From Lamellibrachia columna (lineage: Eukaryota > Annelida > Polychaeta > Sabellida > Siboglinidae): a stretch of DNA of 64,000 bases. The notes beneath the pieces are model-generated. The model was not told the origin of the DNA. It saw only the letters and a program-made list of their open reading frames with translations, and made no database searches. The DNA is taken from the NCBI GenBank assembly GCA_963662155.1, contig OY759271.1, positions 14,860,584 through 14,924,583 on the forward strand, given 5' to 3'. The translations under genes and the position numbers were made by a program. Shown piece by piece: positions 14,805 through 64,000 of this stretch. Each line of letters opens with the position of its first letter. The first letter of the stretch is position 1.

Positions 14805-17800
14805 TGAAGTACGTTCGAGGAACTGGGTTGCTGGGTGGCGCCATCTGGGTACTCCAAAGTTTCCCATTGGGAATATCCTAACATGAAGAGCCTCTGGTGG
14901 GAATTTTGAAATGTAATTAAGTATAGCAGCAAAAATGCACATCCTCCGGATGGGAAAACTTGGTAGTTTGTATGTGACTATAAAATGTCAGGATGCACAA
15001 CGTTATCACATAAATATCCACCAATGCCTTGGTACATGGTGCAGCCAGTCAATATCTTGATGGCTTCTTGAATTTGATTATGTCAAATGTTAATTGTATG
15101 TAACTGTTTGCATAGCATTGTGGACAATTGTACATAATAACTACAAAGGGTAGTTATTACATGGATAGATGAACCCCTGAAAGTGTGGGACCCGAGAATC
15201 AAAGCATCTAGGAGGAGTAGCGTAACATACAGACACTTGCTGGATTATAGCATTGATCAATTTAGATTGCTCTCAGGCGCTTTACATACATAGTAATATT
15301 TTATAGGCCGTAAGTTGCTAAGACTATAATTCTACTAAGAATAATCTACACAAATGTTCAACATTAAAAAAAATGCTAACAATAAACATGTTCAAATATT
15401 CTATAACATCACCTTAAATATAATTAGTAGTAAAAGTAGAAGTAAGAAAATTATCATGAAACTGCTAATAAAATTAATTATATTAAAAATTCTAAAAACT
15501 ACTTTAAATATATTCATTTATACAAGTAAGACTAAGAATGTTTACAGTTTAGTGAGTTGACTCACCTTGAACAACTTGCGGTGGCAGGCTGTCAAGGAGA
15601 GCCAGGTGGCGTCGGTGTTTGCACTCGTAGCAACATTCGTCCTCGCACTCCTCCTCGCTGCTGCCGAGACTGTCCGTCTCCTCACTCAAGTCATAGTCAT
15701 CCTCGAACAACAGATTCTCATCTTCATCATCCTCTTCCTCTTCTATGGGCACCGCCGCCCGGATGCTGGAGTAGATGTTCAAATGACGAGTGCAGCCAAT
15801 CAAATCTACAACGTGAAACCACAAGTTGAGACTAATACACTCTGTGTCCTGCTCAGTGGAATGTTAGAAATATTGTGCAGGCATTTTTTTGTAACCAGTA
15901 ATAAATACATCGCTTTGTTCACTCCAGTTTTGTTTAAACTAATACAATGCAGCTTTACTTGGTTGCACATACAGACGGCATAATTATTACAGTTGATTGC
16001 TATTACAGTAAATTTTAAATTGCAGTGTAACTGCAGAGATTATATTGAGAACCACCCTGGGTACAAATAATTGTTATCAAGTAAAGTAAAGTGAAGAGAG
16101 CAGTACAGCAAAGTACAGTAAAGTGAGCAACAAGCTGCCTTCGCACATCGACTTACTGTTGCGCTGGAGATAGCGGAGGGCATCATCGAAGCCTTGCTGA
16201 CACATATTACTAAGCACCTCGGGGTTGGGGGGAAAGAGGGCGTGTGCCACCCTGTACATGTTGCTTGACGTGAACTGTATACTGGTGCCGGCGAGGTAGA
16301 TGTGTACGAAGTTTGACGAGTTGTCGTCGGGACAAATGTCGCTCTCTCCAGCGAATGGCGACACAGTGATTGTGTTCTTGTCCAGGATCGGAATGTTGTT
16401 GGTGATGCCGCCATCAACGTAGTACTGTGGGGTAAAGCGGACAATCTTACTATCAATCTAACCAGGACTGCACGGTAAAATGCACAATCTTACTACAGGT
16501 CTACCATCGACATAGTACACTGTACTGTGGGGTAAAGCGGACAATCTTACTATCAATCTAACTAGTACTGCATGGTAAAATGCACAATCTTACTATGGGT
16601 CTACCATCGACATAGTACTGTGGGGTAAAATGCACAATCTTACTATTTGTCTAAGCAGAGTTGTAAAAATGGCTTATATACTGGGAAATATTATGTTAAA
16701 TCAAATCAAATCTACATACATACCACCAAGATCAAACTTTATCTACTTCTGTTTTCCTATGTTTACTGCACAACTTTGGTAGCATAAAGAGAAGGCCTTG
16801 TTGTCATTCCTTAATAAGCATAAACCTGGTATTTTGCTTAGAAAAAATCAGGAAATAATATTTTTGGTTATTGCCATTCTTCCATATAACATTTAAAATG
16901 TATCTCTCATATAAAAATCCACTAAAGAAAAATAGTGTACACAAATTTTTATTCTGTATTTTGCAAATTTATGCAAACCATTATTTAACAAGATTTAACA
17001 AGATTTGCCATCCAAGCCAAAGGCCCAGATGGCAAGTGGACAAGGAAGCCATTGGCTTATCGAGAGTCCAACAATGTTCACCTACTTATAACCCGCCCTC
17101 CTGATATATGTGTCAACCTTGTTTTTAAACATATTCACGCTGCTAGCAGTTACACAATCTGTAGACAGTTTGTTCCATTCATTTATTGTCCTCTGTGAGA
17201 ACGAGTGCTTCCTGATGTCCAATCTACATTGATCCTTTACTAATTTTACCTCATGTCCTCTAGTTCTGCTATCCTTCTTGAGTGAGAAAAACATATTTCT
17301 ATCAATATTTTCATACCCATTCAATATCTTAAAAACTTCAATCTGATCTCCTCTTAACCTCCTTGTCTCTAGAGTTGTTAAACCACATTCTTTCAGGCGT
17401 TCTTCATAACTAAGGTCTCTAAGTTCTGGAATCATTTTAGTTGCTCTCCTTTGTATGCGTTCAAGCGTATCTATATCCTTCTTACGATATGGTCTCCATG
17501 CTTGTATACAGTATTCTAAATGAGGTCTAACTATTGCTTTATAAAGAGGTATAATTAACTTTTTTCCCTTATATGTTATGTTTCTTCTAATCAATCCAAG
17601 AATTTGATTACCCTTTGAAGCTGCAATACCAATACATATACATATCATGTTAGGTTTATGGTTGAGTTAATAATTATAATTGTATAATTTAATAGTTATT
17701 AAACAGAATAGAATTATTAGCCAGCAAACATCATGCACAAAATAAGAACTCTGAAGACTGTAAGAATGCTGTGTTTGAGTAACTTACCACTCCGTGGTAT

Positions 17801-19338
17801 TTGGGCGGAACAAGGCCAGAGTAGAATGGTACGAAGGCACTGCACGTGAGGGCCTGTAGACAAAGGAAACAAGTGAGGGCCTGTAGACAAAGGAAACAAG
17901 TGAGGGCCTGTAGACAAAGGAAACAAGTGAGGGCCTGTAGACAAAGGAAACAAGTGAGGGCCTGTAGACAAAGGAAACAAGTGAGGGCCTGTAGACAAAG
18001 GAAACAAGTGAGGGCCTGTAGACAAAGGAAACAAGTGAGGGCCTGTAGACAAAGGAAACAAGTGAGGGCCTGTAGACAAAGGAAACAAGTGAGGGCCTGT
18101 AGACAAAGGAAACAAGTGAGGGCCTGTAGACAAAGGAAACAAGTGAGGGCCTGTAGACAAAGGAAACAAGTGAGGGCCTGTAGACAAAGGAAACAAACAC
18201 AGGTTATATTTAACAGAATCATAATTTTGCACATGGTGGAATTGCCGGTGATAGAACTGATACAAAGATAAATCCATGAGATCTTGATGCATGTGCCAGA
18301 AGTGGTTTTCCAAAATTTTCGTTAATTCTGAGGAAAACTTTCAATTTCTATACCAATATTTTCTTCTCAATTTTGAAAATGCCCTCCATGGCCTCCATTT
18401 CAAGTATACTTACACATAAAATAAAGCCTGAAACATCACATTAAAATGAATATTTTATAAAGCAAATGTTCAGCTATTTGGGGATATCGTGAAAAAGCCA
18501 GTATTTGGGTGTCTGTTTGCGTCCATATGAAATTTTTACAAGCTGAGATCTACACCTCATGTCCACCTATATTTTTTTTTGGCAGGTGTGTTGAACCATC
18601 TAGTCTTCCTTTAGGGACAGCATGGTATTCTTGGGTAATATTAAAAAATCTGTGAAGTCCCCCCCGAGATGTAGACCGCCACAAACATCCTGGTAGCAGC
18701 TGCACAGTAACTGTACAGTGTCCAGGCAATTGGTCAGTTTGATCACTGGTCAAGTCCACTGTGTCCAGGCATTGAAATTAAGCCATCGATGACATCATGA
18801 CCCAATGACTACCCGACCTCATATTGATTACAACGTTCATGCTAATTTATGCATGTAAGCTGCACCCAGCAACACTGCCGGCTGCCACTTATTTTCGCAC
18901 ATAACTTAGCATCAAAATGCACTGGTCGATAAATTTTACCACTGGTCAGTGGTCAGTTGTTGCAAGGAGTTGCAGTTGGACCAAACTAATATTAGTGTGG
19001 AGCCATTAGCTGGCAGTCTCTACAGTTTGTCCAGTATTGTATGTCTTTGTTGCATTGTGCCAACGCTGGCTGTTCGCTGGTCAGTGTTTATGTTCAGCCG
19101 ACACTGATCCACATCTTTTTGTCCAGGGATTGTGGATACGGACCATTCCAGGACAACTATACTCTCCCTCTTAGAAACTGCATCAGGCATGAAATAATTG
19201 TGCCAACACAATATTGCATTGTTTGCATATAATTATAACTGTAGTCTGAGTATATAACTGTAGTTTGAATATATAACTGTAGTCTGAGTATATAACTGTA
19301 GTTTGAATATATAACTGTAGTCTGAGTATATAATTGTA

Positions 19339-19394
<56 letters not shown>

Positions 19395-22300
19395 GTAGTC
19401 CACATATATAGCTATTGTTTGCATATATAACTGTAATATGCATATATGGTATCAGTTTGAGGAAAATCAAACAGTTTAACAGTTTGAAGATGCACGCATG
19501 CTTGCATGCCTAGCACACATAAACACATGTATGCACATGCATGCTCACGCACGCATGCACACGCATGTCTTTTTGAAAACTTAATAAATGGTTACTCTCA
19601 AATGTCCAAAAGCAAAGGCACCATTTACAAATTTCTTCAAGCAGCAATTTAACACACAATTAATGCATATTACATCAACTTGATATCGTTCACAATAATA
19701 ATACTATATAATATATAATATATTATTATTGCACCTCCTTGTAATTTGCAAGGGAGTTAAATCATAAACAATCCTTACTTGGATAAGATCATCCTTGGAG
19801 TTAAATCATAAACAATTCTTACCTGGATAAGATCATCCTTGGAGTTAAATCATAAACAATCCTTACCTGGATAAGATCATCCTTGGAGTCGAAATGTGAA
19901 ATGAGAATGTTTTTCCGGTCGGAAACTCGGGTGAGGGAAACGAAGAGATGACCGGTGGCGATCTCGTGAGCATTGTCAGGGAGGAAGTCATAGAGTCCGT
20001 CCCGCAAGTACTTGACCAGATTGAAGCTAGGGTGCATAGGACCAAGGGCGCGCGACCTCGCCTTCACAGCGATATTGAGAACATAGCTCGTGCATTCACC
20101 TGTGGAACAGGAAAGCAGTTTGTTGTTTGAGAAATAATGTATTTCGTCAAGAATTAACGCACCTGCACACGACACTAAGCAGTGTGTATGAACCACAGAA
20201 CTGAATAACTCTTCTGCAGACGATATTTATTTTATATTATTTATCATTATATTATTTATTATATATTTTTTATTATTTATTATTATTAAATAATCCATTT
20301 ATTTATCTTAAATTAATAGAATTTTTTACTATAACTACTTGTGATACTTATGATTGTGTGTGTGCATGCATACGTGTGTGCATGCATACATGTGTGCATG
20401 CATGCATTTATGATTTTTACATGCCTACGAATTGGCTGGTCCTGGATATAATATGGTGCTTTACAAATTTAAGTAAATAATAATTTAATAGAGATAAAAT
20501 ACATTTGTTGTCTACAGATTTTAAGAGAACCCATTACCTTACAAAAATCCAGTTTTGTTTATTGACATTGAGTGTATACACTGCTAAAGTTACAGAGATC
20601 AAACAGGAACATAATGTGCTTGTTCACTGATAATTCAGCTTCGAGATAATAACATGGCAGATGTGACGAGAATGAATATTCAATATTGTCATCAGGCCTG
20701 CTCAACTAATGAGGCTGTCACAACTTTGTCCTCTGTCAAAGTGCCGGGGTCATCCGCAGGTCAGACCCTAACAGAGAATGTTCTACACGGTCCAATCTGT
20801 AGTTTATTGATTGTTATACACTGTATGTCTGGTAGGACCATAGAGTGGGTATACAACTCTCAATTGGCCAGTTGTTGGCCTGGCTAGTGGCTCTTCAATC
20901 AATTTTAGTAGCCTTTACTTCACTGTTGGGTCTAATTATGTACCTGTAATTGATTACAATGCTGTACCTGTAATTGATTCTGGTTCTGAAATTAATTGTA
21001 ATTCATTTAGTTTGTGTAATCAGTTAATTGATTAATTATGGTATTTTTTCGTACAACAAAATTCACCTGAAAACGCTATCAAAAGTGCTGTTTCACACGG
21101 GCTGAAAATCAACACTTAATTACAAAACCTGCTTACGTAATCAAAGGAATATTTGTAACAAGTTCACCAGAAAAATACCTTTCTTTTAGGCAATACTTAA
21201 TTGAAATATTGAATAAATCGCTGGTCCCATATGATAATTCACCTGCAATTGTAATTGGAAGGGTGTAATTGTAACTGATTTGAAAGTTTTACAAGCATAA
21301 TTAAAATTGAAATGAAAATGTTAATTTATCTGATTTTGTGTAGTTAAACCAACCCTGACTGTTACCAATGGAACTACTGCCTGGTTTGATGATTGTTAAT
21401 CAAAATATTATATCCACAGATTTAAATGGATATTTATAGCACTCAGAATATTTATAGTATAGCATGCATTCAACATTCTTGTATAATGCAGAGACAGCTC
21501 ACATAGTTTATCAGGCAGGTAAATAATACACTGCGACACTGTAGATTCAATATCTACATTAATTATGCCCAAACATGTTTCTAGCACAAAACTTTATAGG
21601 CCTTGCTGATGTGTTCATGAGCACTGATGTGTTCATGAGCACTGATGTGTTCATGAGCACTGATGTGTTCATGAGCACTGTTGTGTTCATGAGCACTGTT
21701 GTGTGATTATCACAATAAAGTCAATAAAACAGTTCAACAACAAGATAGGAAGACTTGTATTAATCTAATTGATTAACAATCATCATGATAGTATTTGTTA
21801 ATAGATAAGATGGTTGATGAAATGATGAACAGGGCTGTCCACAATGTTTTGAATACAATAACACTTATGGTATGTAAAGCTGGATACTCCTCAAGTTTAT
21901 ACAATCACAACAGTGCTATTCCGTGAACCTTGTGCATTTCTAAACATTTAATGAAGGTTGATAAAGGTACGCTCTTATATACCATGGTATCCACTCCTTG
22001 GGACTGCTCAAAGTGCTTTACACTTTACTCCTGGCAGACCTGTTCATTCCAACACCAACTCGACTTCTCTGGGAATTATTCAGCCACATTGCAATTACTG
22101 CAAGAAGACTATTCATTCACAAATGCATCTCTGCCTGTAGCCAGATGCTCATTTATACAGCTGAGTGAACTGTGGCAACGCGGTGTGAACAAAATTGCAA
22201 AGCTTTGAAACGGCAGCAGGAGGATTCGAGTCCTGGTCCTCTCGATCGAGTCTTACGTTTTAATCACTACACCACCGCGCCCCACACTACATGCAAGACA

Positions 22301-36379: not shown

Positions 36380-38655
36380 TCTTGTCTTGTAGTATTACTG
36401 GCCAACACTCCTATGGAGTCAAATGGTCAGGGTTGGGTGCGCATGCTATTTAGTCATGTTTGTTTGGGACTAAGTGTGTGAGCGCTTGCTTAAATTGCTG
36501 TGGTTCTGTGATGTTAGCTGTTGCATCTGGTAATGAATTCCAATCTTTTATTGTTCGGGGAAAATAAGAAAATTTGTAACAGTTCTTGCTCGCGTGTATG
36601 GTATTGAAGGCTTTGCTATTTAGATGCCGTGAGTGGCGTTTGATGGAGGAGGTTTGCGACAGGCAATGATAGATGACTGTGGATGGCTTTGTGAAATATG
36701 GTGAGCCGTCTGTTTGTTCTCCTGGTTGTTAGTAGCTCTAGGTGTTATTTTTTAATCATTTTTGACACACACCCAGATTCTCTGGATGTGTAGTCGTTGT
36801 GGCAAAAGCGAGCCACTCGTCTTTGTACCATCTCTATTTTGTTAATGAGAACCTGGGTGTGTGGGTCCCATACGGATGATGAATATTCTAGGAGTGGGCG
36901 AACAAGGGTTGTGTAGGCGGTTGTTTTGATGTTTTTGGGGCATGAGTAGAGATTCCGTATGACGAATGCAAGTGTGCGGTTAGCTGAGGCAGTGATCTGA
37001 TGGATGTGTTTGTTCCAGGTGAGATCTTTGGTGATACAGACTCCTAGATAGGGATGACTGTCAGTTTCTTGTAGTGTTGAATCTCCTAGCATGTAATTGT
37101 AGTGTTTTATATGTCTTGCGTGTGTAATTCTCATGACGAAGCATTTTTGGGTATTGAAATGCATTTGCCAGTCATGTTCCCATTGTGCCAGCCTGTTTAG
37201 ATCTTTCTGGAGTTCGTGTGAGTCAAACTCATTTTTTATTTCTCTATAGAGGACACAGTCATCTGCAAACAGACGGACTGTGGAGTGAATATTGTCAGGT
37301 AGGTCAATGATGTATATGAGGAAAAGTAACGGTCCCAGTCCCGTGCCCTGGGGTACACCCGAAACAACGTTGGTCCAGGTCGAGTGTTCTCCACCGACAA
37401 CAACTCTTTGTTTGCGACATTTAAGGAAGTTTGCGATCCAGGTGTGTGTATTATTGTGGATGCCATATCTGTTTAATTGATTTAGAAGCCGGTTGTGGGG
37501 GACGGTGTCAAATGCTTTTGAGAAGTCCATTATTATCATGTCAGTCTGGGATTTATTATTTAAAGAATTAGCTAGATCGTGTGTGGTGAGTATTAATTAA
37601 GATTCTGTGGAGTGTTTTCTGCGGAAGCCATGTTGTCTGTCTGTTAAGATTGCGTATTGGTCAAAGTGGTTCATGATGTTAGAGAATACAATGTGTTCAA
37701 GGATTTTGCAACATATCGATGTTAAGGAGATGGGACGATAGTTTAATGCAAGGGACCGGTCTCCCTTCTTGAATATGGGGGTGATGTTGGCCCATAACCA
37801 AGAGAGTGGGAGTTCCCCTGTGCTGAGTGATTTCTGGAAGATTAGACTGAGGGCTGGAGCCAATTCGTTGGCGGCAAGTTGGAGGATTTTGGCGGGCACC
37901 TCGTCGGGTCCTGTTGCCTTGTTTGGATTTAAGTCGTGAAGTAGTTTAGCAACCCCTTCTGTTGTGATGATGATGTCTGGCATGGCTGGTATGTTTGTGT
38001 TTGGTTCTTGTGGTAGGTTGGTGTTTTCGCTTGTGAAGACTGACTTGAACTGGTTATTCAGAATTTCGTCTTTCAGTTTGTTATCTGACTCTAACCTGTT
38101 GTCTTTGGTTAAGGTTGGTATACCGATTGTATCAACTTTCAGGCTTTTGATGTAGGACCAGAATCGTTTGGGCGAGACAGAACAAATGGACGAGATATAT
38201 CTTCTATGTGCAGTTCTTGTCTCTTCGTGTGTGCTCTTACGTGCTTTACGAAAAATTTCATAACTGGTTTGATTTTTCGGTTGTTTGTGCGTGTTGAAAG
38301 CTCTTTGTTTACGTTTGTGTAATCGTTTGATTCGCCTGTTGATCCAAGGTGTTTGGTTATGCTTAGATATTATTTTGGTTGGTATGTGAGAGTTCATTAT
38401 TGATTCAAGAACAGTTTGGAATTCCGTGTACATTTCATTGATTGTGTTCATGGATGTATCCCTTGATGTGAATTCGTTATTCCATTTGAGTAGTTCTTCT
38501 TTCAGAGCCTGTATGTTAGCTTTGGGGTACATGTATATTTTGCGCGGTTTTTGTTTGATAACCCTGGGCTTGCAGCTGTTTATGATTACTGGGATGCCGT
38601 CATGGGCAGTACTACAGCCCTGATATGCTGTGAGCACTGAATACTGCATTCCCAG
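36380..38655 (-). mobile_element. Jockey/CR1-type LINE, 5'-truncated, nearly intact reverse transcriptase
   Basis: A minus-strand frame runs from 38649 to 36745 with one internal stop. It has the RT motifs TGPDEVPAKIL, NITPIFKKGDRSLALNYRPI, DRQHGFRRKHSTES, MDFSKAFDTVPHNRLL, SGVPQGTGLGPLLFLIYI and LFADDCVLY (FADD as catalytic box), then QWEHDWQMHFNTQKC and YLGVCITKDLTWNKHI. Its first residues look like the end of an APE-type endonuclease, so most of the 5' half is missing. TAA at 37599-37597 replaces a codon in an otherwise uninterrupted frame. Homologous text with stops continues to about 36380. Confidence 0.92.
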
Positions 38656-52132: not shown

Positions 52133-52412
52133 CACAAAAACACAAATGACTGACGTGGTGACTAGTACCAGTAGCAGCCACCAGGAGCAGCACACAGATG
52201 AAACAAGTCGTGGGGCAGATGGCACCACTGACACGACTCAGTCGGAGAGTGATGGGGAGAACGCCGACAGAGGGATTCAGGGGGAATTGAAAGATCGAAA
52301 TCCCGAGCCTCCCCCAGAGCTACTGAAGGAGAGGATTCTTGACGCAGATAACATTGGAGGCACGGTCTTCAGCAAACACTGGCTCTTCACCACCCTCATG
52401 AAGCTTATACAG
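52133..52412 (+). CDS. SAAL1: SAAL1 coding exon 1
   Basis: Acceptor TCTATTATCTAG at 52131-52132 shows that a noncoding exon lies upstream. The start is taken as ATG 52146-52148, the first Met inside the exon. It encodes 89 residues: [19 protein letters not shown] and a Ser/Thr/Asp-rich disordered leader, then [16 protein letters not shown] and [20 protein letters not shown]. The human protein starts near 'MDRNPSPPPP', so the leader is an extension or the start is further in. Donor CAG|GTGAGA, phase 0. Confidence 0.9.
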
Positions 52413-55400
52413 GTGAGAGGGGCACCAGACTTTTGGTCGAGGGACTGGGGTTTGATACTACACGTTGCCTGTTTAAAAAAATTAAATTAAAATATGTTGT
52501 GGACTCAGTAACTCTGAAACAAACCGCCAGTCCTGTTACTGGATCCAAGGACCTGTTGGAACTGAAACAAACCATCAGTCCTGTTACTGGATCCGAGGAC
52601 CTGTTGGAACTGAAACAAACCATCAGTCCTGTTACTGGGTCCGAGGACTTGCTGGAACTGACACAAACCATCAGTCCTGTTACTGGGTCCGAGGACCTGT
52701 TGGAAGTAAAAGAAACCGTCAGTCCTGTTACTGGGTCCGAGGACCTGTTGGAACTAAGACAAACCATCAGTCCTGTTACTGGGTCCGAGGACTTGTTGGA
52801 ACTTAGATAAATACACAAGCAATACCCTTTCGAGGTAACTTATTTTGTGCAGCATCCATTGCCCAGCGCAGTATCCAGTCCATGGGACTGCACAAAGTGC
52901 ATTACACTCCACCCCCTGGCAGACCTTACACTCCACCCCCAGGCAGACCTTACACCCCACCCCCTGGCAGACCTTACACTCCACCCCCTGACAGACCTTA
53001 CACTCCACCCCGTGGCAGACCTTGCACCCCACCCCCTGGCAGACCTTGCACCCCACCCCCTGGCAGACCTTGCACTCCACCCCCTGGCAGACCTTACACC
53101 CCACCCCCTGGCAGACCTTGCACTCCACCCCCTGGCAGACCTTACACCCCACCCCCTGGCAGACCTTGCACCCCACCCCCTGGCAGACCTTGCACCCCAC
53201 CCCCTGACAGACCTTACACCCCACCCCCTGGCAGACCTTACACTCCACCCCCTGACAGACCTTACACCCCACCCCCTGGCAGACCTTGCACCCCACCCCC
53301 TGGCAGACCTTGCACCCCACCCCCTGGCAGACCTGTTCATCCCATCACCAACTTAACTTCAGCCAAGCTGCAATTACTGCATGAAAGCTATTCATTCATT
53401 TGTGTAGCTACCTCAGTCCACAGCCAGATACTCGTACAGTTGAGTGAACTGGAGCAATGTGGAGTGAACAAAATTGCCCAAACTTCGAGATGGCAGTTAC
53501 CCATGCCCCATATAACATTGGATTAATGAGGTACCAGCGATCTATCCCGAGGGTTTTGAGGGTCATAAAGGGGGATGGTAGAGCAAGGAAGTTGGAATAG
53601 TTTACGTCAATGTCTTTAAAGATGCATAGTAAAAACACTTCTATTATATTTATTTGTAACCTTCAGATTTCTGTTGACTTTTCAACTGTGAATAACTAAG
53701 ACAATATGTCCTGATATCGAGGCAGATAACTTGAGATCAGTTGATCAGTCGATATACGTTGATCGGCTGACTTAATAAAGATAATCATGATGAGAGATGT
53801 TACATCCACAGGCTGTAGACAGTGAGAACGAGAGCAAGGATGCGAAGCCAACCTCTGACAGTGGCCTTGACCTTGAGGACAGTCTCCAGGACGAGCTGTG
53901 CAACTTGTGGGACATGTCGATGAACCCGGTAAGTGTCGACTATGTGATTCGTTCAGTTCTTCCTCGAGTTTATCTATGAAGGCAGTTTGATTATGGTCGG
54001 TGAATTAGGTTTTGAGATTATGCTGAAGTTATCAGTTAGGATGTCTGGAAACTAGGGCAGAAACTGCTGATTGTAGAAACAAGGCTACAAAAATACAACA
54101 CATATTAACCCTCTGGAATATGAAAGTATTTTTTTACATTTTAATTACAACATTATAAATAAGTTAATTATTATTATAATGTTGTTTGCCCAACTTTCCT
54201 AGATGCCCATTGCTTCCACATTTGACATTGTGTGGATTTCAATCGTTAATGCCTTGAAGTAGAAGTCGTACCACTTGTGTCCATTTTCATGACATGTAAT
54301 GTGTCCATGTTCATGAAATGTCGATGTTCATGAAATGTCACTGTGTCGTCACTTTCAGGAAGTCGTCAGTTTCCTGCAAGACTTCAAGGCCGTTGACATT
54401 CTGACGGGGGTCATTGCCAAGTCACGTGCTCCCAGGGCTACAGTGAGTGCCAGTGGGGTAGGGTGGGGTGGGGTACAGGGTGAAGGTGGGTTGATGGGGT
54501 AGGGTGGGCGAGGTACAGGGATATAGGGTGAAGGTGGGTTGAAGGGGTAAGGTGGGTTGATGGGGTAGGGTGGGTGAGGTACAGGAATATAGGGTGAAGG
54601 TGGGTTAAAGGGGTAGGGTGAGTTGATGGGGTAGGGTGGTGTTGGTACAAGGATTAAGGGTGAAGGTGGGGTAGAGTGGGTTGATGGGGTAGGGTGGGGT
54701 GGAATGTACAGTGAATTTGGGTTGGTGGGGTACAGGGATATAGGGTGAAGGTAGGTTGAAGGGGTAGGGTGAGTTGATGGGGTATGATCGGTGGGGTACA
54801 GGGTGAAAGTGGTTGAAGGGGTAAGGTGGGTTGATGGGGTAGGGTTGGTGAGGTACAGGGATATAGGGTGAAGGTGAAGGGGTAGGGTGAGTTGATGGGG
54901 TAGGGTGGGGTGGGGTACAGGGATATAGGGTGAAGTTGGGTTGATGGGGTAGCGTGGTGTTGGTACAAGGATTAAGGTTGAAGGTCTGCTGATGGGGTAG
55001 GGTGGGGTGGAATGTTACAGTGAAGTTGGGTTGGTGGGTAGTGTGGGTTGATGAGGTAGAGTAGGTTGATGGGGTAGGGTGGGGTGGAATGTTACAGTGA
55101 AGTTGGGTTGGTGGGGTTGTTGGGGTAGAGTGGGTTGATGAGGTAAGCTGGGTGGGGTACAGGGATATAAGATGAAGGTGGGTTGATGGGGTAGAGTGGG
55201 TTGATGAGGTAGGGTGGATTGATGGTGTAGGGTGTGGTGGGATACAGGGATATAGGATGATTAAGTTATATATATATATATTGAGGAACAAATTTAGTTA
55301 CATAACATAATGATAACAAATTCACTCCCTTAAAAGAAGCTTGTTTATTAATTTTTTTTAAAAGATGTGGAAACAAGGAACTCATTTAGCATGAATATAG

Positions 55401-58400
55401 TAAATGGTTGATTCATGAAAATGTTGATTTTTGCTTCAGGAAATATGTGTGGGCATCCTAGGCAACATGGCTTGTAACGAGCAGGCCTGCAGAGAGATCT
55501 CAGCACATGAGCGACTCGTGTAGGTATATCATATATCATACAGTGGTTTAGTACTCATCTCGGAGGTACTTGGTTCTTGGTGATGGCCCACCCAGAAGTT
55601 GCACACAAATTGGGTGCAACTGGACAACATATTTAGCACCTGGACATGAAGCTGGAAATTTATGAGACACTGAAAGCCATACATCCCTTCTAATTGGTGT
55701 CTGCGCCAGGGTATATAAAATATATATTGTAAGGACTACAGCCTCACAGTGATGCCTCCAGGGAAACCAGTGTTGTATGCCAATGGGTACACCTGCATAT
55801 GAATGAAGATGAATAAATAAAATATTCATTGGCAAATACACAATAAAAACCACCAATTTCAGGTCAGTATAAGGTTCAGTTATTGTGCATGTGCTCAGGT
55901 TTGACTTGAAGTGATGTAATTAAATGTTTTTGCAACACCATAATATAATTGCACATTTATGCTTATGTTGATCAGATGTTTGCGTTTAATTTCCAGTGAA
56001 CTTCTCTTGATGTTGTTGGAATCTCCTGATGCCCCTACCCTGATTGAACTGACAAGGTAAGCACCCTCCAGTGGGTATAGAATGGCAGTAGGAGGGTAGG
56101 ACAGGTCTTCCATAGGGGGAATTGCTGTAGTTGTAGTTGGGGATAAAAGTAGTGGGAGCCTGTCTTGTCCTTGTTGTCTCTTCGTTAGTGATGTCCCTAT
56201 AAGTGAACCAGCGCAATCATGTTTATACCATTTTCTGTTTTATACTGTTTGCCACAGTGACCTGAACATACTTGATGATGCTGTTCTTATTTATGTTTGC
56301 TTGTTCCGTTCGTCTGACTATTGACGAGGTGTGCATGTGGATGAAAAATATTTGTTGTTTTTGCCCCATCATTACTGGTATTTGTTGTGTAGGAAGAATT
56401 ATGGTAAACGTTGCACATTAGTTTGATGTGGGCACTGGTTTTCTTTAGTCTTTTGCATCCTGTAATTATTTATCATTCTCACTAAGTGTTATTGGGGTGT
56501 AAATGTTCGTTCTAGACTGCTGCGGGTGTGTGTCTCCATGGACGCTGCAGTCAAGACATGGACGACTGCCATCAAAAAGACGGACTCTGTCTTCACCAGC
56601 ATTCTATTTATACTGCAGAGTTCCACCAACAGTACGTGGCGTTACACCAGTGAATTGGCCTGAACTGTTAGAGTGCTACAGAATATGTGCGTGGAAGGAT
56701 ACATATTGCATGTGTTATGCATATATTACATCCAATGTAAAGATGATTTTAATGTTTCATTCGGTTCACTGAATGAAAATCAGTTATATAACTGTGTGAC
56801 AATAAATGACAACTCAGTGACAATAAATGACATGATTCAGTGACAGTAAATATAAACGTTAAATAAATCTTCATAACAGTTATTGGTAAACATCTATGAA
56901 TTGGTCTGTGGAATTAGGGATGTGACTGATGTGGATTTTATGCATATGAATTTAGTTGTCTAACATCCCTGGAATAATTCCATTCTAACTGTAAAGACCT
57001 TCTTTTGAAAGATGTGACTTTTGCACCCCATTTTATATGCATGGTTTATTATAAAATGTCTAATGACAACATTGATAGCAACATCAACAGTAATGATAGC
57101 GTTAATAGTGACCCTGAATTCAACAGTAACAACAACACTGACAGTGACACAGAAGTCGACAGTAACAACAACATTGACAGTGACACTGAAGTTGACAGTA
57201 ACAACAACACAGACAGTGACACTGAAGTCGATGGTAGCAACAATGCTGACAGTGACACTGAAGTCGACAGTAACAACAACACTGACAGTGACACTGAAGT
57301 CAACAGTAACAACAACATTGACAGTGATACTGAAGTCGACAGTAACAACCCTGACAGTGACGTTGAAGTCGACAGTAACACTATGATTGACAGGAGTAGC
57401 ACTAATAATGACAATGGGTATGCTGACACCTGCTTCACTGTCGGCTGTATATATGTGAACTATATATACTTAATAAACATATTTGTGTATTTCAGATGAT
57501 CTACTACGTAACTTGGCTGAGTTTGTTGACAAAGTGATGGATATAGATGAGGAAGTCGTTGAGTTGTGGGGGACACCGGAACTGGTCCAGGCCTTACTGG
57601 AGGCCATTAAACAAGTCAGGTAGGACTAGAGGAGGTAGTAGAGTTGTGGGGGATGTCAGAACTGGTCCAGGCCTTACTGGAAGCTGTCAAACAAGTCAGG
57701 TAGGACTAGAGGAGGTAGTAGAGTTGTTGGGGGATGTCAGAACTGGTCCAGGCCTTACTGGAAGCTGTCAAACAAGTCAGGTAGGACTAGAGGAGGTAGT
57801 AGAGTTGTGGGGAATGTCAGAACTGGTCCAGGCCTTACTGGAAGCTGTCAAACAAGTCAGGTAGGACTAGAGGAGGTAGTAGAGTTGTGGGGGGAGTCAG
57901 AACTGGTGCAGGCCTTACTGGAAGCTGTCAAACAAGTCAGGTAGGACTAGATGAGGTAGTAGAATTGTGGGGGATGTCGGAACTGGTCAAGGCCTTACTG
58001 GAAGCTGTCAAACAAGTCAGGTAGGACTAGAGGAGGTAGTAGAGTTGTGGGAGGAGTCAGAACTGGTCCAGACCTTACTGGAAGCTGTCAAACAAGTCAG
58101 GTAGGACTAGAGGAGGTAGTAGAGTTGTGGGAGGAGTCAGAACTGGTCCAGACCTTACTGGAAGCTGTCAAACAAGTCAGGCAGGACTAGAGGAGGTAGT
58201 AGAGTTGTGGGGGATGTCAGAACTGGTCAAGGCCTTACTGGAAGCTGTCAAACAAGTCAGGTAGGACTAGAGGAGGTAGTAGAGTTGTGGGAGGAGTCAG
58301 AACTGGTCCAGACCTTACTGGAAGCTGTCAAACAAGTCAGGTAGGACTAGAGGAGGTAGTAGAGTTGTGGGAGGAGTCAACTGGTCCAGGCCTTACTGGA

Positions 58401-61400
58401 AGCTGTCAAACAAGTCAGGTAGGACTAGATGAGGTAGTAGAGTTGTGGGGGGTGTCAGAACTGGTCAAGGCCTTACTGGAAGCTGTCAAAAAAGTCAGGT
58501 AGGACTAGAGGAGGTAGTAGAGTTGTGGGAGGAGTCAGAACTGGTCCAGACCTTACTGGAAGCTGTCAAACAAGTCAGGTAGGACTAGAGGAGGTAGTAG
58601 AGTTGTGGGGGATGTCAGAACTGGTCAAGGCCTTACTGGAAGCTGTCAAACAAGTCAGGTAGGACTAGAGGAGGTAGTAGAGTTGTGGGAGGAGTCAGAA
58701 CTGGTCCAGGCCTTACTGGAAGCTGTCAAACAAGTCAGGTAGGACTAGAGGAGGTAGTAGAGTTGTGGGAGGAGTCAGAACTGGTCCAGACCTTACTGGA
58801 AGCTGTCAAACAAGTCAGGTAGGACTAGAGGAGGTAGTAGAGTTGTGGGGGATGTCAGAACTGGTGCAGGCCTTACTGGAAGCTGTCAAACAAGTCAGGT
58901 AGGACTAGATGAGGTAGTAGAGTTGTGGGGGATGTCAGAACTGGTGCAGGCCTTACTGGAAGCTGTCAAACAAGTCAGGTAGGACTAGATGAGGTAGTAG
59001 AGTTGTGGGAGGAGTCAGAACTGGTCCAGACCTTACTGGAAGCTGTCAAACAAGTCAGGTAGGACTAGAGGAGGTAGTAGAGTTGTGGGAGGAGTCAGAA
59101 CTGGTCCAGACCTTACTGGAAGCTGTCAAACAAGTCAGGTAGGACTAGATGAGGTAGTAGAGTTGTGGGGGGTGTCAGAACTGGTGCAGGCCTTACTGGA
59201 AGCTGTCAAACAAGTCAGGGAGGACTAGAGGAGGTAGTAGAGTTGTGGGGGTAGGCAGAACTGGTCCAGGCCTTACTGGAAGCTGTCAAACAAGTCAGGT
59301 AGGACTAGATGAGGTAGTAGAGTTGTGGGGGATGTCAGAACTGGTGCAGGCCTTACTGGAAGCTGTCAAACAAATCAGGTAGGACTAGAGGAGGTAGTAG
59401 AGTTGTGGGGGATGTCAGAACTGGTGCAGGCCTTACTGGAAGCTGTCAAACAAGTCAGGTAGGACTAGAGGAGGTAGTAGAGTTGTGGGGGTAGGCAGAA
59501 CTGGTCCAGGCCTTACTGGAAGCTGTCAAACAAGTCAGGTAGGACTAGAGGAGGTAGTAGAGTTGTGGGGGGGAGTCAGAATTGGTCCAGGCCTTACTGG
59601 AAGCTGTCAAACAAGTCAGGTAGGACTAGAGGAGGTAGTAGAGTTGTGGGGGTAGGCAGAACTGGTCCAGGCCTTACTGGAAGCTGTCAAACAAGTCAGG
59701 TAGGACTAGAGGAGGTAGTAGAGTTGTGGGGGTAGGCAGAACTGGTCCAGGCCTTACTGGAAGCTGTCAAACAAGTCAGGTAGGACTAGAGGAGGTAGTA
59801 GAGTTGTGGGGGAGTCAGAACTGGTCCAGGCCTTACTGGAAGCTGTCAAACAAGTCAGGTAGGACTAGAGGAGGTAGTAGAGTTGTGGGGGATGTCAGAA
59901 CTGGTACAGGCCTTACTGGAAGCTGTCAAACAAGTCAGGTAGGACTAGAGGAGGTAGTAGAGTTGTGGGGGATGTCAGAACTGGTCCAGGCCTTACTGGA
60001 AGCTGTCAAACAAGTCAGGTAGGACTAGAGGAGGTAGTAGAGTTGTTGGGGGAGTCAGAACTGGTGCAGGCCTTACTGGAAGCTGTCAAACAAGTCAGGT
60101 AGGACTAGATGAAGTAGTAGAGTTGTGGGGGGTGTCAGAACTGGTGCAGGCCTTACTGGAAGCTGTCAAACAAGTCAGGTAGGACTAGAGGAGGTAGTAG
60201 AGTTGTTGGGGGAGTCAGAACTGGTGCAGGCCTTACTGGAAGCTGTCAAACAAGTCAGGTAGGACTAGAGGAGGTAGTAAAGTTGTGGGGGGTGTCAGAA
60301 CTGGTCCAGGCCTTACTGGAAGCTGTCAAACAAGTCAGGTAGGACTAGATGAAGTAGTAGAGTTGTGGGGGATGTCAGAACTGGTGCAGGCCTTACTGGA
60401 AGCTGTCAAACAAGTCAGGTAGGACTAGATGAAGTAGTAGAGTTGTGGGGGATGTCAGAACTGGTGCAGGCCTTACTGGAAGCTGTCAAACAAGTCAGGT
60501 AGGACTAGATGAAGTAGTAGAGTTGTGGGGGATGTCAGAACTGGTCCAGGCCTTACTGGAAGCTGTCAAACAAGTCAGGTAGGACTAGATGAAGTAGTAG
60601 AGTTGTGGGGGATGTCAGAACTGGTGCAGGCCTTAATGGGGGCTGTTAAGCTTTCTTGCATTAAATGATCTACGGGTTCACCCAAACCATGTCTTGTTTT
60701 CTACTTATAATTATATGCTCTCCTGCCGTCATGAAGTATATGTATCTATATGAATATTATATATTATAAATTTTATGCATTGGCATATGTAAGATCAACT
60801 TCCTCTCTCCGTGTATGTATCTGTACATTAGACGTTTTATGCATATCAGCCGGTAGTATATAATCAAGTCACGTAGGGTGGGGTAAAGATAACATATTAA
60901 TGTGTAGAACATTTCCTGGTTGTTTAAAGTGGAGCTTTAAAATATTGAAATAAAATGCAATAATTCTAGGTGTTGTTATAATATTTTTAAACATGAAATG
61001 TGCATGTAAATCAGTAACCAACTGTGGGACGTGGCGACTGTATGGAGGAGTGGAGGATTTTCGGTCGAGGGGATCGGGATTCAAAACCACTTGCTGCCAT
61101 TTTGAAACTGCAATTTCGTTCACTGCACTTTGTCTGTGTCTTTTGGAAGAGACACTTAACCCATTAGGCCCCAGGATTTTATTAAAACATGCTCCCCTGT
61201 TCCCAGGATTTCTGGCAATTTTCGAGTGATTTTACCTCCTTGTGTTAAAAAATCTGTAGAAAAAACTATTCAATATTGACAATTATTTTGAAGAGTAGTA
61301 ATTTCTCCACATGCATGTATACATAGAAATAGGATATATTAATAAAATGTTGACATTTGGTCACAATTTGCAAAGACAAAATACTAAGTTTGTTAAAACT

Positions 61401-64000
61401 TTCTACCTTGCGACTGATATTTGACAAATGATCCCATGCTATAACCTTACGCAACCCAGCGAAGAAAATGTAGCTACCCTGTATATGTGTTAGCTTTGCA
61501 CCACTGAAAACATTATCAAATTCTGACGGTTATTTTTCAGGTTACACCATATTTTATCATGACAAATATAGAAATGAAAATGTTCGAGATAGCATGAACA
61601 AAACCGATGAAAATCAAGATTTCCGAAAGGGCAACACATGCACGTAACGAGCTGTTGTTGTTGCAAAATGTATCCGCTAGGGTGTGGCAAAATTTGGTAG
61701 CGTTTAGGTCAGTAGTTATTTGCCAGCATTTTTTTTAATAGAGGGTCCTGTATGCAGCCGGCGGTGGCCATTCCAGGACTGCACAGAGCGGCCGGCCGCG
61801 GCCGTTGTGGGGTCTAATGGGTTAAAGCCATTGGACCTTTCTATCCGGTGCCTGTAACAGGGGAAGTAAAAGACATCTATGGCATAAGACATATTCATAT
61901 TCATTAAATGACTAACACCATAATCATAACATGATATCATGCTTAAGGATTCAGGTTTGTTGTGCATCGTGTCTCTGAATACTTAGGTGCTACTGAAGGG
62001 TTATTATCATTGTCTCATGCTCATTGTACAAACTTATGTGATATTAGTTAATGTCGTTGAATTATGTGGAAATGACAGTGATTAACGTGTGACATGTCTG
62101 TTGAGCAGGACACAAGCTGGGGGCACATTTGACATGTTTCTACACATCCTACAACTGGTGTCTACTTGCGAGGCTGGCATCCACGCAGTAGGTATGTGTC
62201 TCACAGTGGAACTCTCTAAATACACCAGCTTTGTATCTCACCGTGGACCCCTGTAAATACACCAGCTTTGTGTCTAACCAAGGACCCCTCTAAATACACC
62301 AGCTTTTTGTCTCACCAAGGACCCCTCTAAATACACTAGCTTTGCGTCTTACCAAGGACCCCTCTAAATACACTAGCTTTGTGTCTCACCAAGGACCCCT
62401 CTAAATACACCAGCTTTGTGTCTCACCAAGGACCCCTCTAAATACACCAGCTTTTTGTCTCACCAAGAACCCCTCTAAATACACCAGCTTTGTGTCTCAC
62501 CATGGACCCCTCTAAATACACCAGCTTTTTGTCTCACCAAGGACCCCTCTAAATACCCCAGCTTTGTGTCTTACCAAGGACCCCTCTAAATACACTAGCT
62601 TTGTGTCTCACCAAGGACCCCTCTAAATACACCAGCTTTGTGTCTTACCAAGGACCCCTCTAAATACACCAGCTTTGTGTCTCACCATGGACCCCTCTAA
62701 ATACACCAGCTTTGTGTCTCACCATGGACCCCTCTAAATACACCAGCTTTGTGTCTCACCAAGGACCCCTCTAAATACACCAGCTTTGTGTCTTACCAAG
62801 GACCCCTCTAAATACACTAGCTTTGTGTCTCACCATGGACCCCTCTAAACACACCAGCTTTGTGTCTCACCATGGACCCCTCTAAATACACCAGCTTTTT
62901 GTCTCACCAAGGACCCCTCTAAATACACCAGCTTTGTGTCTTACCAAGGACCCCTCTAAATACACTAGCTTTGTGTCTCACCAAGGACCCCTCTAAATAC
63001 ACCAGCTTTGTGTCTTACCAAGGACCCCTCTAAATACACCAGCTTTGTGTCTCACCATGGACCCCTCTAAATACACCAGCTTTGTGTCTCACCATGGACC
63101 CCTCTAAATACACCAGCTTTGTGTCTCACCAAGGACCCCTCTAAATACACCAGCTTTGTGTCTCACCAAGGACCCCTCTAAATACACTAGGTTTGTGTCT
63201 CACCATGGACCACTCTAAACACATTAGCTTTGTGGCTCACCATGGACCCCTCTAAATACACCAGTTTTGTATCTCACCATGGACCCCTCTAAACACACTA
63301 GCTTTGTATCTCACCATGGACCCCTCTAAACACATCAGCTTTGTGTCTCACCATGGACCCCTCTAAATACACCAGCTTTTGGCAGCTGACATTTGTATCA
63401 AAGGCCCGCCATCCACCCAGTCCTGTAACAGACTGGCTACAACTTGCCTACTTTAACTCCTGGCATATTGAAAATGTGTCTTTCAGACGAGAATTGAAGA
63501 GCTTTAGGTCCTGTCTGCCTGGTGGCTATGCCAGGGTAAGTAAAGTAATGGGGTAAATGTGTAACCTGCTCTACTATCAAATACATTTCAACAACTTTCA
63601 AATACATTTCAACAACTGACTTGTAAGTCCCATGTGAACATGTCTTCCACCTAAATATATAGAAAAATGCTGTTTTTGGTCTTGGGCTATCAATTAATAA
63701 TAATATGTCCATTCTACCTTGTGGTTATGATGGGGATCCCTCACCTGCTGAGAACTCATGGAGTGGTGGTCGCTATCAAACCCCAAAAACTAGTCACAAC
63801 AGACGTAAAAATAGGTGACTGATTTGAATAACCTATTGACACTCTGCCGTTGATGTATGTTTCAGTTGACTATGCTGGCATGCTTTGTGACATCACACAG
63901 CAGTACCTGGTGACTTTATGCTCTGATGACGTCCTCGTGGTGCGTGGACGTGAGAGAGGCATCGGCTCAGCGATCTCCATTCTCTGCGCAGTCTTCTCTG
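52133..64000 (+). CDS. SAAL1: SAAL1 (serum amyloid A-like 1) orthologue, 5' nine coding exons
   Basis: Nine coding exons with consistent phases give about 355 residues before the window ends; human SAAL1 has 474, so roughly the last third is outside. Diagnostic matches to human include [103 protein letters not shown] and [25 protein letters not shown]1 is an armadillo/HEAT-like helical protein linked in mammals to synovial fibroblast proliferation (also called SPACIA1). Its molecular role is poorly known. Introns 1, 3, 6, 7 and 8 contain minisatellites, several of them on the donor site. Confidence 0.92.
52420..52485 (+). mobile_element. tRNA-like SINE head fragment
   Basis: GGCACCAGACTTTTGGTCGAG and GACTGGGGTTTGATACTA resemble the anticodon and B-box region of tRNA-derived SINEs and closely match 61050-61090 (TTTTCGGTCGAGGGGATCGG). 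It begins eight bases after the exon 1 donor. Confidence 0.5.
52515..52806. repeat. 48-bp minisatellite, 6 units, in SAAL1 intron 1
   Basis: Six copies built of ACAAACCATCAGTCCTGTTA, CTGGGTCCGAGGACCTG and TTGGAACTGA. One frame is open through all copies and encodes a 16-residue repeat ([16 protein letters not shown]). It is not in frame with a read-through from exon 1, which meets a stop before the array. Most likely noncoding. Confidence 0.93.
52866..53500 (-). mobile_element. tRNA-derived SINE, copy 4, inflated by an internal 24-bp array
   Basis: Left part (CAGTATCCAGTCCATGGGAC, CAAAGTGCATTACACTCCAC) and right part (CTGTTCATCCCATC, AAGCTGCAATTACTGCA, ACAGTTGAGTGAACTGGAG, AACAAAATTGCCCAAACTTC) align with copies 1 and 3. 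The motif ACTCCACCCCCTGGCAGACC, present once in the others, is tandemly repeated here. The tRNA head is lost or decayed. Confidence 0.85.
52900..53334. repeat. 24-bp minisatellite, 18 units, inside the SINE
   Basis: Unit CAGACCTTRCAYYCCACCCC followed by CTGG, 18 copies. C/T and A/G variants alternate in patches, as expected from unequal exchange. Long Pro-rich or Cys-rich frames on both strands are repeat products. Confidence 0.97.
53812..53928 (+). CDS. SAAL1: SAAL1 coding exon 2
   Basis: 117 nt, 39 residues, phase 0 both ends: acceptor TCCACAG, donor [27 protein letters not shown], then [19 protein letters not shown], matching human 'ELDEEMENEICRVWDMSMD'. The Asp/Glu-rich start is presumably flexible. 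Confidence 0.92.
54359..54442 (+). CDS. SAAL1: SAAL1 coding exon 3
   Basis: 84 nt, 28 residues: [20 protein letters not shown] then KSRAPRAT; human has '[27 protein letters not shown]'. Donor ACA|GTGAGT. The G-rich array begins 12 bases into the intron. Confidence 0.92.
54455..55262. repeat. G-rich degenerate minisatellite filling SAAL1 intron 3
   Basis: About 800 bp of words such as GGGGTAGGGTGGG, TTGAT, GGTACAGGGATATAGGGTG and AAGGTGGG in irregular order. The first block at 54455-54473 (GGGGTAGGGTGGGGTGGGG) fits the G-quadruplex pattern of four runs of at least three G with loops of one or two bases. The coding strand carries the G's, so a pre-mRNA quadruplex is possible. Confidence 0.9.
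55440..55519 (+). CDS. SAAL1: SAAL1 coding exon 4
   Basis: 80 nt: acceptor [29 protein letters not shown] then SAHERL and the first two bases of Val. The first 12 residues are identical to human. The donor GT|GTAGGTAT was chosen over the downstream TAG|GTATAT because only it keeps the frame and gives VELLLMLL across the junction. Confidence 0.88.
55540..55865 (+). mobile_element. Possible SINE in SAAL1 intron 4
   Basis: GTGGTTTAGTACTCATCTCGG and ACTTGGTTCTTGGTG resemble A- and B-box spacing. The far end (AATGAAGATGAATAAATAAA) is tail-like. I found no second copy in the window to confirm it. Confidence 0.25.
55997..56056 (+). CDS. SAAL1: SAAL1 coding exon 5
   Basis: 60 nt between TTTCCAG and AAG|GTAAGC, entering and leaving two bases into a codon. 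[19 protein letters not shown], aligned with human 'VLLHCLYDSDPPTLLETSR'. Confidence 0.88.
56516..56631 (+). CDS. SAAL1: SAAL1 coding exon 6
   Basis: 116 nt after acceptor [27 protein letters not shown], then [19 protein letters not shown]; human 'RLLLTCLSQAEVASVWVNTL...ICFIMSSSTN'. Donor A|GTACGT, phase 1. Confidence 0.9.
57062..57385. repeat. 36-bp minisatellite, about 9 units, in SAAL1 intron 6
   Basis: Units of GACAGTGACACTGAAGTCGA plus CAGTAACAACAACAYT. One forward frame (57005-57499) is open through all of them and encodes a 12-residue repeat [12 protein letters not shown]. The array ends about 110 bases before exon 7. No clear splice borders make it an exon, so I treat it as intronic. 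Confidence 0.9.
57496..57619 (+). CDS. SAAL1: SAAL1 coding exon 7 (source of the 80-bp array)
   Basis: 124 nt from acceptor GTATTTCAG to donor [30 protein letters not shown], then [20 protein letters not shown] and VR. Human has 'NVDLLVKVGEVVDKLFDLDEKL' and 'LEAAKQVR'. Phase 2 at the end joins AG|G = Arg in exon 8. The last 71 nt and the donor are the template of the downstream array. Confidence 0.92.
57629..60650 (+). repeat. 80-bp minisatellite of about 37 copies of an exon end plus 5' splice site
   Basis: Each unit equals the last 71 nt of exon 7 (from GAG GAA GTC GTT in the exon; GAG GAG GTA GTA in the array) plus nine intron bases GTAGGACTA. Nearly all units keep TCAG|GTAGGACTAG; one has GC (near 58181) and one has GG (near 59220) at the donor. 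Units encode [20 protein letters not shown] then KQVR and a stop TAG. Variants (GGGGATGTCAG, GAGGAGTCAG, GGTAGGCAG) recur in patches. The final unit is truncated near 60645. Confidence 0.97.
61020..61865 (+). mobile_element. SINE-like element split by a TTAA-flanked insertion
   Basis: The tRNA-like part (GTGGCGACTGTATGGAGGAG, TTTTCGGTCGAGGGGATCGG, GATTCAAAACC as a weak B box) is followed by CACTTTGTCTGTGTCTTTTG and GAAGAGACACTTAA. It resumes after the insertion with AGCCATTGGACCTTTCTATC and CGGTGCCTGTAAC. Similar tails occur in several animal SINEs. Confidence 0.5.
61160..61821. mobile_element. piggyBac-type MITE (TTAA target duplication)
   Basis: 662 bp bounded by CCCATTAGGCCCC and GGGGTCTAATGGG, a 13-bp terminal inverted repeat with one mismatch. 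TTAA stands immediately outside on both sides (61156-61159 and 61822-61825), the hallmark target duplication of the piggyBac superfamily. No transposase inside. The right end contains the GC-rich word CGGCCGGCCGCGGCCG. Confidence 0.8.
62109..62191 (+). CDS. SAAL1: SAAL1 coding exon 8
   Basis: 83 nt after acceptor [27 protein letters not shown] then CEAGIHAV; human 'YMHILQLLTTVDDGIQAI'. Donor GTAG|GTATGT, phase 1. The 38-bp array starts on this donor. Confidence 0.9.
62192..63385. repeat. 38-bp minisatellite, about 31 units, starting at the exon 8 donor
   Basis: Unit CTCTAAATACACCAGCTTTG plus TGTCTCACCAAGGACCCC. The first intron bases, GTATGTGTCTCACAGTGGA, already belong to the pattern, so the donor lies inside or at the edge of the first unit. 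Variants (CCATGG/CCAAGG, CACTAG/CACCAG) are shared between non-adjacent units, indicating repeated exchange. Confidence 0.97.
63866..64000 (+). CDS. SAAL1: SAAL1 coding exon 9 (cut by the window edge)
   Basis: After acceptor TGTTTCAG the frame reads [40 protein letters not shown] and CAVFS to the last base. It parallels human '...[38 protein letters not shown]' loosely, strongest at the end. Phase 1 fits exon 8. An additional small exon inside the preceding array cannot be excluded. Confidence 0.8.

Follow-up and report, generated by a model that had tools for sequence, protein, structure and literature searches.

How does a gene cope with an intron that opens with dozens of copies of its own splice site? 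The question is raised by a 64,000-nucleotide stretch of DNA from the siboglinid annelid Lamellibrachia columna (assembly GCA_963662155.1, contig OY759271.1, positions 14,860,584 to 14,924,583 of the forward strand), called the window below. In it, the end of exon 7 of the gene SAAL1 and the first bases of intron 7 are repeated in tandem some 38 times. By its structural features, as far as these can be judged from the sequence, the array is a mirage minisatellite, a kind of repeat already known in amphioxus. It is probably a neutral one, carried in a minisatellite-rich genome and tolerated through use of the donor nearest the exon.

The SAAL1 gene and the exon 7 boundary

Positions are those of the window unless a contig is named, and a slash marks the exon-intron boundary. 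The features needed here are the following.

52146 to 64000, plus strand: SAAL1 coding exons 1 to 9, from the gene model and homologues; exon 9 extends beyond the end of the window.
57496 to 57619, plus strand: SAAL1 exon 7, in a GT-AG model with one open frame; 57549 to 57619 is the exonic part of array unit 1.
57549 to 60646, plus strand: donor-side mirage array, 80 bp x 38.7, from Tandem Repeats Finder (TRF) and the list of units.
57620 to 57628, plus strand: authentic exon 7 donor, CAG/GTAGGACTA, the first among 36 identical donor sites.
57620 to 62108, plus strand: SAAL1 intron 7, 4489 nt.
62109 to 62191, plus strand: SAAL1 exon 8, in frame with exon 7 via the first donor.

The gene was named after the database names of its homologues. 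Eight GT-AG introns, placed by us, join the exons into one open frame, and the resulting protein is 77% identical to the homologue of Ridgeia piscesae over 100% of the query and 99% identical to saal1 of Lamellibrachia satsuma over 51% of the query. These closest proteins point to a vestimentiferan, Lamellibrachia or a near relative, as the host and not to a chordate. A Pfam search of the protein gave a single ARM match, below the cutoff. When exon 7 is joined to exon 8 via the first donor, the frame aligns with the relatives (nine in the alignment, eight of which cover exon 7), and the annotated Ridgeia protein has the identical join. From this conservation of the protein we infer that the first donor is the one used.

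The L. satsuma database protein continues from exon 6 into the following intron, where it ends short of exon 7. Most simply, the gene model is broken at this point, a probable annotation fault of which annotators of this gene should be warned.

Structure of the array

TRF reports a single array with a period of 80, 95% matches and a score of 5400. The unit spans the exon-intron boundary, consisting of the last 71 nt of exon 7 and nine nucleotides of the intron. Read unit by unit there are 39 units: unit 1 belongs to the exon, 37 complete decoys come after it, and a final unit breaks off after about 60 nt. The left edge is slightly ambiguous, since in our reading some units carry GATGAAG and admit an alignment that begins slightly earlier in the exon, by a few bases. 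All 39 matches to the unit that were reported in a search of the 880-Mb assembly (30 contigs) fall inside the SAAL1 array. An introner-like dispersed element, which would have similar copies at many loci, was accordingly rejected.

The motif TCAG/GTAGGA is intact at 36 of the 38 donor positions, that is in 35 of the 37 decoys; the two losses are a change of GT to GC in unit 8 and of GT to GG in unit 21. The duplex predicted with U1 has an energy of -10.7 kcal/mol for the real donor and the same for each of the 35 intact decoys. In predicted U1 pairing the exon 7 donor ranks third strongest among the eight donors of SAAL1. Splicing from any of donors 2 to 6, each of which was computed, would end translation at codon 284, which lies 79 nt or more upstream of the exon junction, and the later donors share the first extension, so they would meet the same stop. 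On all these points (the composition of the unit, an amplification of about 37-fold, some 35 intact donors among 37 copies, and an immediate stop beyond any donor but the first) the initial annotation of the stretch is in agreement with the present analysis. A recursive-splicing (ratchet) function of the units was set aside because their CAG/GT is not preceded by a pyrimidine-rich tract.

Evolution of the array

The decoys resemble one another more than they resemble the exon. Their mean mutual identity is 95%, staying at about 95% for units spaced 1 to 12 apart, as against 81-86% identity to the exon unit. The earlier proposal that the array homogenises separately from the exon is therefore correct: concerted evolution has taken place within the array, with the boundary copy in the exon excluded. 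The difference can be seen in the encoded peptide, where the exon's T, P and I, which are shared by Ridgeia, are replaced in the units by M, E or V, then mostly by S, and by V.

The peptide itself had been described as preserved, a statement that needs qualifying. It is broken in eight of the 37 units, four having an in-frame TAG and four frame-shifting indels, and selection on it is therefore unsupported. For the donors, variant cells number 2 of 333 in the donor 9-mer and 101 of 2664 in the other columns. Singletons, which are less inflated by copying than counts of variant cells, are found twice in the 9 donor columns and 13 times in the 72 others, a comparison of low power given so few changes. 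Their density is thus no lower in the donor 9-mer than elsewhere, and selection on the donors is unsupported at this power. Both donor changes hit the essential +2 base. In this weak test, protection of the decoy donors is not seen, nor is any evident constraint on the peptide.

Relation to known mirages

The amphioxus mirages, as presented in the available part of their description (PMC3087553), are tandem repeats lying across exon-intron boundaries on either side of the exon, with splice signals in many of the units. The cluster undergoes concerted evolution from which the boundary copies are left out. Examples given there include the globins BflGb6 and BflGb9, Adh3 and others, and reverse transcription PCR together with data on Adh3 suggest that regular splicing is undisturbed. 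The SAAL1 array likewise crosses a boundary, carries copies of the splice signal in its units and has been homogenised without the boundary copy. It differs from the mirages of these cephalochordates in that its host is an annelid, a new phylum for this kind of repeat as far as the literature searched shows, the coverage of that search being incomplete. It also has more copies than the globin mirages described, about 38 as against 6 and 3 units in two BflGb6 haplotypes (PMC3087553, as far as the available text goes).

Two other systems bear comparison, each through the accessible portion of its report. Boundary repeats similar to the SAAL1 array are found in lancelet PGBD5, in 2-7 copies depending on the version of the assembly, and part of one set has been annotated as exon (PMC3902484). 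The minisatellites in intron 1 of earthworm metallothionein genes, with a mean monomer of about 180 bp, are intronic arrays of an annelid like that of SAAL1; unlike in SAAL1, exon ends or splice sites are not described for them in the accessible text (PMC12783039).

Mirages in other genes

The pattern is not confined to SAAL1. Another gene of the window, on the minus strand and called PNPLA2-like after its homologues, has mirages at three consecutive exons, one on the donor side and two on the acceptor side, and these exons join in one open frame. The gene fragments found nothing in Pfam or PDB.

19753 to 19889, minus strand: donor mirage of PNPLA2-like exon A, 44 bp x 3.1, in which the exon end AAGGATGATCTTATCCAG/GTAAGG is repeated.
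17846 to 18196, minus strand: acceptor mirage of PNPLA2-like exon B, with a 27-bp unit of 19 intron nucleotides, TTGTTTCCTTTGTCTACAG, and 8 exon nucleotides.
About 16422 to 16646, minus strand: acceptor mirage of PNPLA2-like exon C (16424-16157), with four upstream decoys of pyrimidine tract plus CAG.

In the three-copy array of exon A, GT is present in both decoy donors (2/2). Exon B (17853-17788) has 13 identical copies whose intron part ends in CTACAG, giving 12 perfect decoy acceptors, all with AG (12/12). These lie 27 bp apart, and their use would keep the frame open (open frame 17731-18321), each unit adding nine residues. The decoys of exon C all retain AG (4/4).

Elsewhere in the genome, exons of kinase genes were inspected by TRF and for repeated 12-13-mers. 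Their ends were picked by us, and so not at random, from 136 matches (130 of 1043 first-look candidates having been scored); to be picked, a match had to end within the domain and be free of stops. The picks provided 39 donor sides (20 + 19) and, for the first 20, the acceptor sides as well. Strict, exon-containing mirages were found at one of the 39 donor sides (exon L073) and, in our reading of the sequence, at one of the 20 acceptor sides (exon L059).

Contig C9, about 2956134-2960334, minus strand: kinase gene (L073, L091, L092) with a donor mirage, then an acceptor mirage in the next intron.

This gene, which we take to be STK36/fused-like, has at the L073 exon a 35-bp unit made up of 31 exon and 4 intron nucleotides, with nine AAG/GTACC donors; GT is kept in all eight decoys (8/8), and the donor copies are weak in predicted U1 pairing (-5.6). 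The exon that follows is 68 nt long, and the intron after it is filled by a 52-bp repeat that ends in the true exon and copies the pyrimidine tract, the AG and the exon start. There are 51 such decoys, nine of which keep the AG. Joined together, the three exons of the gene read straight through the kinase domain with 90.6 bits, which supports the splice sites. At L059 the acceptor-side mirage, as we read it, is a 36-bp x 10.8 array that extends beyond the stretch examined; 10 of its decoys were counted, and AG is present in 7. The L034 exon has a 16-bp x 8.2 array that starts exactly at intron position +1, with GTATGT in most units; it abuts the exon and contains no exon sequence.

The 9/51 in the kinase gene suggested that decoy donors and decoy acceptors are unequally tolerated, a notion contradicted by the 12/12 and 4/4 in the PNPLA2-like gene and hence abandoned. 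Separately, two diverged copies of one kinase-domain exon, candidate mutually exclusive exons, lie 541 bp apart at L090 (C8:1007700-1008900).

Tandem repeats in the genomic background

The background was estimated from a grid of 20 evenly spaced 10-kb stretches in the first 10 Mb of the 51.8-Mb contig, with repeats of period at least 15 counted. Tandem arrays make up 20% of this grid; once the two satellite stretches are excluded (L015 and L028, which are 99.5% and 80% tandem satellite), the figure for the other 18 is about 13%. Arrays are so common in the genome that those spanning boundaries can be explained without special targeting, provided that they are tolerated.

Arrays next to splice sites without copying them also occur in SAAL1.

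62195 to 63379, plus strand: 37-bp x 32 array beginning 3 nt inside SAAL1 intron 8, abutting the donor and containing no exon sequence.
54478 to 55240, plus strand: G-rich tandem arrays, the first long TRF row 35 nt past the SAAL1 exon 3 donor.

Altogether an array lies over, or within 35 nt of, three donors of SAAL1 and likewise two of its acceptors (exons 3 and 6); for the first 20 kinase exons, the corresponding numbers at a distance of up to about 30 nt are 2 donors and 3 acceptors. A bias of arrays toward the 5' end of introns was not shown by these counts.

A looser donor motif was present in 8 of the 141 arrays of the window and of L009-L030, compared with 3.3 on average in 300 resamplings, where the highest value was 8, and with 2.4 on average in 100 sets of genomic segments, where it was 7; for the strict motif the figures were 2 of 141 and 0.8. 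This nominal excess was not counted as an enrichment because five of the eight rows belong to just two repeats, of which they are adjacent or overlapping pieces, and four of the eight come from the window, which had been chosen for its array.

The window also contains, on the minus strand at 36745-37596, a reverse-transcriptase frame of a retrotransposon (RVT_1, 81.1 bits).

Probable origin and tolerance of the array

A short tandem duplication across the boundary of exon 7 and intron 7 would have started the array. Slippage or unequal exchange, the presumed means of growth, could then have enlarged it to about 38 copies, which homogenise on their own inside the intron. The exon-proximal donor would be chosen presumably by exon definition, which could draw on the exon 7 acceptor and the unique 5' part of the exon. 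The decoys would then leave with the intron, and the array probably has little or no function. What lets it persist would be that the exon-proximal donor stays with the real exon.

Several observations count against this account. In classical experiments with duplicated donors it is often the intron-proximal site that is favoured, and here each of the 35 intact decoys is predicted to pair with U1 as strongly as the real donor does (-10.7 kcal/mol). The survival of 35 of 37 donors would be expected under weak selection as well, two changes giving little power. The residues substituted in the array occur in more distant relatives (M in P0010, S in P0004, V in P0006) and so are not clearly damaging. 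The end of the L. satsuma protein in intron 6, finally, could be that of a truncated transcript.

If the decoys were used in some transcripts, the array would act as a splicing rheostat, lowering the output of SAAL1 through stops and nonsense-mediated decay. The predicted strength of the decoys would permit this, as would the stop at codon 284 computed for donors 2 to 6 and its distance from the junction. The rheostat is nonetheless unlikely: unrelated genes have arrays of this type too, at acceptors as well as donors, the donor bases are not clearly protected, and the published amphioxus cases, to the extent that the available texts cover them, are suggested to splice normally (PMC3087553, PMC3902484). 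It is still less probable that the array is a U1 sink, in which 36 sites over 3 kb would recruit U1 and shield the long intron from early polyadenylation. The array does contain 36 sites that match or exceed the exon donor in strength, compared with nine on the plus strand of the remaining 61 kb of the window, but such a density would result from copying any donor; protection of the donor bases is again not seen, and the donor copies of the kinase mirage pair poorly with U1 by prediction. That mirages recur in unrelated genes, at either end of exons, argues against selection for either role, as does the abundance of tandem arrays in this genome. Of the three proposals in the initial annotation, the neutral repeat thus fits best, and the sink and the rheostat are left unsupported, the donor 9-mer being not clearly less variable.

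The length of the array rests on one assembly, and long tandem arrays are difficult to assemble, so that a short repeat might have been inflated. There is little to recommend such an artifact, since 25 types of unit occur among the 37, the variants are interspersed, units of 78, 79 and 81 nt are present, and a boundary array of comparable length exists in another gene on another contig.

Implications

The array, probably a neutral mirage tolerated through its exon-proximal donor, carries into the annelids a kind of repeat known as a curiosity of amphioxus, at copy numbers far above those of the globin cases described. With 36 donors of equal predicted strength at the start of one intron, the choice between the first, the strongest and the last donor becomes testable. 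The worth of the finding lies in this natural experiment and in the frequency of the pattern in the small part of the genome examined. It is conceivable, though we hold it only tentatively, that many genes of siboglinid genomes contain mirages, at either end of exons and in up to about 50 copies, and that splicing there is exon-proximal, taking the first of many equal donors and the last of many equal acceptors. If this is true, the tubeworm genome would offer a natural set of cases in which exon definition is pitted against perfect decoys by the dozen.

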